In this document: piece by piece, positions 8,383 through 10,645 of the stretch
How positions within the stretch are numbered: position 1 is the first letter of the stretch
Layout of the letters: the number at the start of each line of letters is the position of its first letter
DNA from: Nitrososphaerota archaeon
Lineage (GTDB): Archaea; Thermoproteota; Nitrososphaeria; Nitrososphaerales; UBA183
Length of the DNA: 15,350 nucleotides
Assembly (NCBI GenBank): GCA_029784825.1
Contig: JAFMAU010000047.1
Coordinates: 1 to 15,350 of the forward strand
Reading direction: 5' to 3'
Translations under genes and position numbers: made by a program
The notes under the pieces: model-generated
Seen by the model: the letters and a program-made list of their open reading frames with translations, nothing else
The model's database searches: none
What the model was told of the DNA's origin: nothing

Positions 8383-9129
8383 CTAGAACGACGGCATCCA
8401 GCCGGGTCTCGAGGACCAAGTCGCGATAGCGTCGTGGGCGTGGATCGATTCAAAGCAACGGCCGCTTATGAAGAGGGCATCAGGGAACCTGCTCACGCAC
8501 TCTCTGACGAGGTCCTCCGCGAAGCGAGGGTTCGTCTGGGCCTCAATGATCTTCTTGGCTTCCTCGAGCCGCTTCATGTGCTCTTTTGGAGTGGCGGAGA
8601 AGCATTCTGATATCCGCGAAATCACTTGCATGGAATTCAGCACCTTTTCGCTCTTCAAGACCACCGTCATCTCCGCCCTCTGCATGTGCCCGATACCAAT
8701 CATCTTCTTCGAGCAGGGGCACGCTGTCATCCCGAGCACCACGTATCGGTAGGAAATAGCGCCGCGCTGGGTCGCCCTCAGCGTCACCTTCGCGAACTGG
8801 TCTTCATATGGGAGCTCGAAGCTCGCCGTGACGCTCGAACCTGGCTGCGTCCTGTTCACCTCGCTGCAGATCCATCTCAGCCACTGCTCCATCCCTTTGG
8901 ACCTCCTGCCGTTCGCCGCCTTGACCAGACGGCTCATGTGGACGCCCCTATGCAGCCCGGTTGACGTCTGGACCGTTAGGTCAACCGGCAACGTAAAGTT
9001 GCCAGCTCTGCCTAGCAACCTGTAGTTCGTGATACCTGCGTCTATTGAGAGGCGGGACGACTCGGACTGGACATCGGCTGTGGCGTCTATGAAGTCGAGG
9101 GCGTCTGTTGGCCCTTCTTCGCTCCTCAA
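8383..9129 (-). CDS. mptA: GTP cyclohydrolase MptA/FolE2 type (GCYH-IB)
   Basis: This metal-dependent enzyme opens and rearranges GTP to a dihydroneopterin phosphate, the first step toward preQ0 (archaeosine in tRNA) and pterins. The family block GMTACPCS (133-140) contains the metal-binding cysteine. LHRGVHMSRL (59-68) is the other clear signature, and the GCYH-IB core follows. The length of 248 aa fits archaeal members of about 250-310 aa. The start is the TTG at 9129, with a TATA box about 28 nt upstream that overlaps the queC stop, so a leaderless transcript is likely. It follows queD and queC on the same strand, so precursor supply for archaeosine is the likeliest role. Confidence 0.88.
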   Translation of the reverse strand: MRSEEGPTDALDFIDATADVQSESSRLSIDAGITNYRLLGRAGNFTLPVDLTVQTSTGLHRGVHMSRLVKAANGRRSKGMEQWLRWICSEVNRTQPGSSVTASFELPYEDQFAKVTLRATQRGAISYRYVVLGMTACPCSKKMIGIGHMQRAEMTVVLKSEKVLNSMQVISRISECFSATPKEHMKRLEEAKKIIEAQTNPRFAEDLVRECVSRFPDALFISGRCFESIHAHDAIATWSSRPGWMPSF

Positions 9130-9153: not shown

Positions 9154-9161
9154 CTTTAAGT
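9154..9161 (-). promoter_or_regulatory. TATA box of mptA overlapping the queC stop codon
   Basis: The minus strand reads ACTTAAAG, preceded by an A-rich GGAAAAT that resembles a BRE. It is centred about 28 nt before the TTG at 9129. mptA can therefore be transcribed independently of queDC. Confidence 0.5.
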
Positions 9162-9803
9162 AATTTTCCTATGCGCGCTTGTAAGCGGGTCTGAAAGTCT
9201 CGCCTCCGAGAACGCCTGGATGCGCGATGCGCAGCCGGCGCAGCTCATGCAGTGCGACTGTCCATCTTTGTGGCAGCTCCATGTGAGCTCGAAGGGCACC
9301 CCCACCGCTGAAGCTAGCTTCAGTACCTCGGCCTTCGTCCTCCGCCTCAGAGGACGGAGTATCTGGAGCCTTTGCCTTCTCAGCCTGACGGAGCCTGCTC
9401 GAAGTGCCCCCTGTAAGCGTGAAAAGAACTCGTCGCTGACATCCTCGAAGACCTTGGCGTCATCCTTGTTGTGCCCCCCCACGATCACCGAAGCTCCGGT
9501 CTCCTCTGCATACGAGGCTGCGAACGAGTAGAATATCGGGTTCCTGAGAGGGATGTAGGTGGGGGGAAGCCCTTCGAACACCGTTTCAGGGATGTCGCTC
9601 GCTTCTCTGAGGTCGGGGAGACGGACGAACCTGTGCTCCCGTAACCCAGCCGCCTCCGCTAACGATCTCGCGGAGCTCAGCTCCCGCTTGGCGATTCCAT
9701 GATATTCGAAGGTGAGAGCACTGATGCGATACTTCGATCTGGTCAGAAACAGCGCGGTGGCGGAATCGATGCCTCCAGAGAGGAGGACTATCGCCTTCTT
9801 CGT
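9156..9803 (-). CDS. queC: 7-cyano-7-deazaguanine (preQ0) synthase QueC with a non-canonical start
   Basis: QueC converts 7-carboxy-7-deazaguanine to preQ0 using ATP and ammonia. The PP-loop SGGIDS is at residues 9-14, and the zinc site near the C-terminus is Cys177, Cys185, Cys188 and Cys191 (C-x7-C-x2-C-x2-C). At 215 aa it has the usual length. The reading frame is intact through the whole family, but it has no ATG, GTG or TTG before an internal GTG at 9581, which would delete the PP-loop. I place the start at the ACG at 9801-9803, exactly where the family has Met (then KKAIVLLSGG). The ATA at 9789-9791, which overlaps the queD TAG as ATAG, is the alternative. The 5' end overlaps queD by 16 nt. 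A sequencing error cannot be excluded. Confidence 0.82.
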   Translation of the reverse strand, partial: TKKAIVLLSGGIDSATALFLTRSKYRISALTFEYHGIAKRELSSARSLAEAAGLREHRFVRLPDLREASDIPETVFEGLPPTYIPLRNPIFYSFAASYAEETGASVIVGGHNKDDAKVFEDVSDEFFSRLQGALRAGSVRLRRQRLQILRPLRRRTKAEVLKLASAVGVPFELTWSCHKDGQSHCMSCAGCASRIQAFSEARLSDPLTSAHRKIT

Positions 9804-10645
9804 CTGTCCCGGGCACCGTCCTGGTGCAGTTTGGCGAGTATGTGGCTCCCCTTGTTGAGCCCCTCGTACACGTAGACGCCGACGGCTGTAACATTCGACG
9901 GCATCTTGGGCGCTATCCTTTCCAGGACCTCCTTTGCGAGGTTCTCGACCGTCGCCTCTCCCTTCATCAATATGGTTGTCTGCGCGGGAGCTTTGATGGC
10001 AAATTCGCCGTGGACCGTCTCGAACATGAGCGAGACACCTTTCGGGTCCATCGCCTTCACGTATTTCTCGTTGATGAAGAGCTTGTGGTCAAGGCTGCGC
10101 ACCGCTTCCCTCACGACCTGCTTTGCCAAGGCGAAGTCGACCACCATGCCTTCGACTGGGCGCCCAATGACCTCGACGAGTACGCTGGTGGTGTGCCCGT
10201 GCATCACCGAACACTTCTCGGTCTTGGGGAGGATGTGCGCGTAATCGAAGCTGAACGATGGATCGTCTAGGAATATGGTCTGGAGCCCCCTCTCCTCCCC
10301 GATCCCGAGGACTCTCACCCCGTGGTCGAACCTGTCGCTCCTGGTGGCTTCCCTCGTTACGACTATGCACTTTGACCCCTTGAGCTCGGCCAGGATCCGC
10401 GCATCAAAGTCTGGCTCGACGAAGACGAGGGTTTCCTTCACCTTGAAGTCTGCGACCAAGCCTTTCGGCCGCTGAAGTGTTACGTTCTCCTGATAAGTTA
10501 CCCCGATGCCGCCAAGTAGGTCTGCAACCAGCTGATGCGTGCTCGACCTTACCGTGCTCCCGCCGCTCCTGTACGCCCTCCGGTAAGCCCCCTCATCCAG
10601 CCGTTTCAGCCTCGGGGCGAGCTTCATGAGAACCTTCTCGCTCAC
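9788..10645 (-). CDS. queD: 6-carboxy-tetrahydropterin synthase QueD with an N-terminal extra domain
   Basis: Residues about 128-278 are a PTPS/QueD domain making 6-carboxy-5,6,7,8-tetrahydropterin from dihydroneopterin triphosphate. Zinc ligands are His137 (FDYAHIL) and His149/His151 (HGH). The catalytic Cys145 sits in C-x3-HGH, which is the QueD arrangement. GMVVDF and LDHKLFIN are also conserved. Residues 1-127 are an added domain: helices, then QLVADLLGGIGVTYQENV, LVADFKV and LVFVEPDF, resembling the alpha-beta pattern of PD-(D/E)XK-like folds but without a clear ExK. At 285 aa it is about twice the usual length. The start is the GTG at 10645, with a TATA box 28 nt upstream (leaderless). 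It is followed by queC. Confidence 0.9.
   Translation of the reverse strand: MSEKVLMKLAPRLKRLDEGAYRRAYRSGGSTVRSSTHQLVADLLGGIGVTYQENVTLQRPKGLVADFKVKETLVFVEPDFDARILAELKGSKCIVVTREATRSDRFDHGVRVLGIGEERGLQTIFLDDPSFSFDYAHILPKTEKCSVMHGHTTSVLVEVIGRPVEGMVVDFALAKQVVREAVRSLDHKLFINEKYVKAMDPKGVSLMFETVHGEFAIKAPAQTTILMKGEATVENLAKEVLERIAPKMPSNVTAVGVYVYEGLNKGSHILAKLHQDGARDRRRRR

Follow-up and report, generated by a model that had tools for sequence, protein, structure and literature searches.

Natural ACG start codons are described, in the parts of the literature available to us, in eukaryotes, in their viruses (AAV) and in plastids. Among these, yeast ALA1 has a natural ACG start and the ACG starts of plastids are partly edited to AUG. 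Prokaryotes also start translation at GTG, TTG and, rarely, at ATT, as in infC; these are likewise near-cognate codons accepted by the initiator tRNA, whereas ACG differs from ATG at the middle base. The available text of one study cites one GUC start in Halobacterium and reports, for a haloarchaeal reporter, that AUG was 5-37 times better than GUG while the product of UUG was undetectable (PMC4574771). In Sulfolobus, aIF1 favours discrimination against non-canonical starts, according to the accessible part of another (PMC6237735), and the portion available of a treatment of archaeal recoding (PMC8211752) leaves ACG unmentioned. Searches of an open-access library turned up no account of archaeal genes starting at ACG, and because most subscription papers lie outside that scope, this absence is no proof.

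Here we analyse queC in a stretch of archaeal DNA of 15,350 nucleotides (the window) together with its relatives. Our analysis indicates, with a probability of roughly 0.86, that ACG truly functions as a start codon of translation in this Nitrososphaerales family and that queC starts at the ACG at positions 9803-9801 of the minus strand; the best reading of the sequences is that such a start is rarely used in the family. As in eukaryotes, their viruses and plastids, ACG would then take the place of AUG in a real gene. In contrast to those systems, the codon is found here in archaea, family-wide in metabolic genes, and alternates with ATG at one site. If this is true, ACG belongs to the start codons used by a group of uncultured archaea, and usual annotation omits it.

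Start site of queC in the window

The identity of QueC rests on a match to Pfam PF06508 (E 1.1e-44, 152.9 bits against a cut-off of 22) covering profile positions 1-209 of 210. The PP-loop SGGxDS is present as LLSGGIDSAT and the C-terminal cysteines, for which we presume a zinc role, as WSCHKDGQSHCMSCAGC, which agrees with the intact QueC frame reported in the first-pass annotation. The frame lies on the minus strand, where it stays open between 10088 and a stop codon whose last base is 9156. The 95 codons in 10088-9804 include no ATG, GTG or TTG; an earlier count of more than 30 such codons was therefore correct in kind and too low. The codons leading from the ACG to the PP-loop (ACG AAG AAG GCG ATA GTC CTC CTC TCT GGA) are free of standard starts as well. 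With three of 61 sense codons serving as starts, a run of 95 start-free codons has a chance of about 1 in 100, so the mere absence of a start codon is only mildly unusual and the weight of the argument rests on conservation among relatives.

Read from the ACG (9801..9803, minus strand), queC extends over 9156..9803 of the minus strand and encodes 215 amino acids followed by the stop. In a phmmer alignment to the QueC of PDB chain 3bl5_A, residue 2 of this product (the K after the ACG) pairs with residue 4, and the alignment thus sets the ACG at the QueC start. A GGTG at 9814..9817 (minus strand), 10 nt before the ACG, is complementary to the CACCTCC of the 16S rRNA 3' end of genome G006 (GGATCACCTCCTTA), and it is possible that it serves as the Shine-Dalgarno element of queC. 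A hairpin before the ACG was considered and rejected: its CACC/GGTG stem is present in the fold of the window, but other distinct family sequences fold differently.

The gene upstream, queD (9788..10645, minus strand), has a GTG start, a TAG stop at 9790-9788 and a PTPS domain that spans residues 131-264 of its 285, while no Pfam family matched its first ~130 residues (10645-10256, minus strand). The overlap of queC and queD amounts to 16 nt if queC starts at the ACG. Downstream of queC is a gene of the GTP cyclohydrolase folE2 family (PF02649) at 8383..9129 of the minus strand.

The queC start codon among relatives

A search for queC over 101 genomes gave some match in 84, paralogues counted. 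The family set used here comprises 39 queC loci of at least 53% identity from 37 genomes including the window, with two copies each from G011 and G029; L001 and L034 were left out as copies of the locus of G001. The 39 loci are not independent, since the window and G001 do not differ in this region and a few further pairs come close to identity.

The initiator codon in this set is ACG in 36 loci, TCG in two and ATG in one. These are script scores re-read by hand, which assigned L032 and L119 to ACG and L024 to ATG. Seven loci of genus g7, L032 and L119 among them, have the ACG one codon nearer to the PP-loop, moved along with the start of the protein. In L024 an ATG, two codons on, comes straight after the locus's own ACG. 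The two TCG copies, L023 (G003) and L114 (G033), form a counter-point to an ACG start: TCG replaces the family ACG there with no other start nearby, and TCG is itself an unlikely start.

Upstream of codon -3 (GTC in the window), 32 of the 39 loci have no in-frame ATG, GTG or TTG at all. Five others (L013, L018, L027, L116 and L118) reach an in-frame standard codon only at about 144 codons or more upstream, L025 has one at -25 (an in-frame TTG 17 codons ahead of its ACG) and L024 has one close to the start. Of the 39 family loci, two (L024 and L025) have a standard start at a distance of 5-30 codons ahead of SGG, compared with 109 of 111 queC loci outside the family (32 from the same order and 79 from a wider set, leaving out L002, a low-identity paralogue). 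The two misses outside are L046 and L127. The queC of L127 (G075) has no standard in-frame start and reads TGA AGA GGC ATA TCT GAG AAG GCA, with ATG in place of AGA in its relative L126; ATA may be used as the start in L127.

An error of assembly or sequencing, or decay of queC, would also leave the gene without a start, and a point error turning ATG into ACG had been suggested earlier. What is known of the lineage comes from fragmentary assemblies, and coverage of L034 is given as 2.38. However, the queD-queC junction codons, with the same ACG, are identical in G001, a second assembly of the lineage and the nearest genome (it has 71% of the window's sampled 31-letter words), and the frame is intact up to the cysteine motif. 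Conservation of the ACG both in the family and in this second assembly excludes the point error, and the probability of error or decay in general is negligible. The comparison of queD-queC junctions proposed in the first-pass annotation has thus revealed a conserved non-ATG codon, the outcome that speaks for biology. The placement of the ACG at the initiator position of the family is borne out by the codon counts and by the alignment to 3bl5.

Relation of the queC start to queD

In 35 family loci queC overlaps queD in a different frame, and the A of the ACG is a third base of queD. This base is A in 33 of the 35 overlapping loci against 12% of 2779 queD third positions, a count that leaves out L022, L024 and L025 (no queD there) and to which no probability is attached because the loci are related. 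In L029, queD shares the frame of queC and stops at a TGA, after which two codons precede the ACG. In L022 and L025 there is no QueD-like frame within the 75 upstream codons inspected. The ACG is retained in all three loci, where the queD overlap is absent. Coupling to queD is therefore possible yet not required, and it is not the cause of the ACG. The coupled translation which had been thought to be implied by the overlap survives as a possibility and not as a necessity.

The same loci bear on a -1 frameshift shortly before queD ends, which would yield a QueD-QueC fusion and had been put forward as another route to QueC. The two frames are rightly related for such an event in the window and in 34 other loci. 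However, the overlap contains no slippery heptamer of the X XXY YYZ type, and a frameshift leaves three further genes discussed below (thiL, a nucleotidyltransferase and ahcY) unexplained. Because of the in-frame TGA before the ACG in L029 and the lack of a QueD-like frame in L022 and L025, frameshifting is not the general route; it is ruled out family-wide and we consider it highly improbable.

A start at the ATA (9791-9789), which forms an ATAG (9788..9791, minus strand) with the queD stop, was a further suggestion. Its position was given correctly, and many family members share the ATAG overlap. As a start, however, the ATA fails: it is not conserved, being GTA or GTC in several loci including L010, L011, L012, L017, L021, L022, L119 and L029, and starting there would deprive strand 1 of its conserved A-[IV]. 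We give this option hardly any credence, and the ACG remains the preferred start of queC.

Annotated N-termini of QueC

A database search found 745 homologs. Among the 120 listed, 112 are annotated from codon -3 (mostly as MLLSGGIDS) and six further inside, so that 118 begin at or after codon -3; the two starting upstream of the conserved strand are P0042 (MPTKEAIVLLSGG) and P0111. Their hosts are named Nitrososphaerales, Nitrososphaerota or Thaumarchaeota archaeon. Since gene-finding programs normally ignore ACG starts, most database QueC proteins of this kind would be without their front end. A stump of 141 aa is read from an internal GTG of the window (9156..9581, minus strand); the database protein P0007 has the same length and is 99% identical across 66% of the query.

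The annotation would be right if QueC truly started at codon -3, at a GTG where one is present, and the codons upstream were merely queD overlap. Across the 39 family loci, codon -3 is GTC in 18 (the window among them), GTG in 16, GTA in three, GTT in one and GCG in one, and is thus not conserved as a start. Even the share of GTG is favoured by the list of loci, which was drawn from predicted proteins. In addition, the non-overlapping L022, L025 and L029 retain the strand (A-[IV]-V) that leads up to SGG, and the alignment to 3bl5 runs through this strand. A start at codon -3 is therefore very unlikely, and translation from the ACG is the reading followed below.

Candidate ACG starts in other genes

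The ACG start appears not to be specific to queC. Judged from their start columns, a gene that we name thiL from its sequence, a sugar nucleotidyltransferase, more weakly a putative DUF2203-like gene and, in one sub-lineage, a gene presumed from its sequence to be ahcY behave alike.

Reading frames were compared between the whole contig of G006 (1,504,237 bases, 60% G+C) and 880 kb of G017 (62% in an 800-kb piece). In 457 gene pairs, with shadow frames filtered, ACG was aligned to ACG in four columns that lacked a standard start both upstream and within the eight codons that follow, while 0.54 such columns were expected from codon frequencies. Since the excess over expectation is larger still for several rarer codons, the test serves only to nominate candidates. 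An argC-like gene accounts for one of the four columns, which proved false, since an ATG follows. The remaining three candidates were traced in 61 genomes each and 30 loci were cut out for each. Automated choice of the start column in neighbour genes picked wrong columns in many clusters and was excluded from the counts. A one-sided scan turned up ACG in 2 of the 15 G017 cases and in none of the 18 from G006, as well as CTG in four pairs; the P-type ATPase of G017 is an ACG start candidate in the scan. Taken over 457-473 pairs, queC, the three shared genes and the two G017-only cases suggest that ACG starts about 1% of comparable genes, a rough figure because genes with any upstream standard codon escape the scan. 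Near the start of a gene at ~1341620 of G006 contig 1, which we take to be topoisomerase VI B-like, G006 is apparently one base longer than G017 and the frame is shifted.

The start column of thiL, which mostly lies one base past a TAG, holds ACG in 16 of 30 family loci, ATG in 13 and GTG in one. Each of the 16 ACG copies is preceded by a stop in frame four codons upstream, and the first standard codon lies 4 to 44 codons inside. The ACG is present in four genera (g1-g4), and on a quick ML tree the switches from ACG to standard codons or back number five, of which starred branches force at least three. A 31st family locus (L373, G035) has TTG two codons before the column and ATG one after; G013 and G036 were left out of the set. 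Outside the family, all 15 loci have ATG, GTG or TTG in the stretch between eight codons ahead of the column and one codon past it.

For the sugar nucleotidyltransferase (PF13562), the N-terminus was reached in 22 of 24 family loci. The start is ACG in 15 of these, CTG, TTG and ATG in two each, and one locus (L297) has ATG a codon on; a GTG lies 3-4 codons inside in five of the 15 ACG copies. Four loci of other families were readable, with TTG in two, GTG in one and no ATG, GTG or TTG near the start in L299 (G049, from another family of the order). The frame of L299 after a TGA is GAG AAG ACG AAG ACC CGC, and an ACG start may therefore exist outside the family too.

The DUF2203-like gene has ACG in 22 of 28 family loci and ACG a codon on in L355 and L360, while ACG is absent in L357, L359, L361 and L362. 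This gene is weaker evidence, because in 13 of the 22 ACG copies a standard codon also lies no more than 30 codons upstream. A stop is present two codons before the ACG in L335, L345, L348, L350 and L356.

ACG in ahcY is confined to G017 and its near relative G014 (L389) among the relatives fetched; the other 19 of 20 have ATG (15), GTG (two) or TTG (two). G006 has TTG. A standard codon has recently turned into ACG in this gene.

Some orthologs of thiL, the nucleotidyltransferase and ahcY thus hold a standard start in the very column where others have ACG, which swaps with ATG, GTG, TTG or CTG. In the start columns of these three genes and queC, G fills the third position and T or C the middle one, with L297 as the exception; ATA, ATT and ATC were not seen there. 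Such natural swaps of ACG and ATG within one gene and its leader (thiL, ahcY) make the choice of start by archaeal initiation factors and initiator tRNA directly testable. They also allow one to ask whether archaea accept the near-cognates used by eukaryotes.

Possible route of initiation at ACG

We propose that the ordinary Met-tRNAi (anticodon CAU) would read ACG with an A.C mismatch at the middle base, the third-base G being paired normally. The ribosome could be placed on queC by the leader, or by re-initiation after the end of queD. In the available text on termination-reinitiation at overlapping genes (PMC10666635), the geometry described is one that both the 16-nt queD-queC overlap and the usual position of thiL one base after TAG would fit. 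However, the start here is ACG and is retained by queC copies without the overlap. Drift towards G+C in these genomes (60-62% G+C) may have turned ATG into ACG wherever initiation tolerated the change. By G+C alone, this content fits that of the Gagatemarchaeaceae, for which the accessible part of a published account gives 54-62% (PMC10640624).

The TCG copies of queC would be explicable if TCG relates to TTG as ACG does to ATG. Tolerant reading yields that relation, and so does C-to-U editing of the mRNA, by which start codons would be made before translation (ACG to AUG, TCG or CTG to UUG). Editing would account for the TCG, and each of the odd codons in the start columns of the four genes (ACG, TCG and CTG) is a single C-to-U step from AUG or UUG. 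However, the four genes display no common motif around the C, and T-to-C change in G+C-rich genomes combined with tolerant reading covers most of the observations. To our knowledge, no archaeal mRNA editing of this C-to-U kind is established. We consider editing unlikely and favour direct reading of the ACG.

Loss of aIF1 as a cause of the ACG starts was rejected, as SUI1 (aIF1) was found in 31 of the 37 family genomes searched. An initiator tRNA with an altered anticodon is another conceivable cause; scans of G006 and part of G017 did not find an initiator tRNA of any anticodon, and a further query mostly matched short T-arm-like stretches. In G006, a CAU tRNA with an intron adjoins the aIF1 (SUI1) gene (contig 1, 1349433-1349877), and T-arm-like matches lie near SUI1 in G011, G016 and G035.
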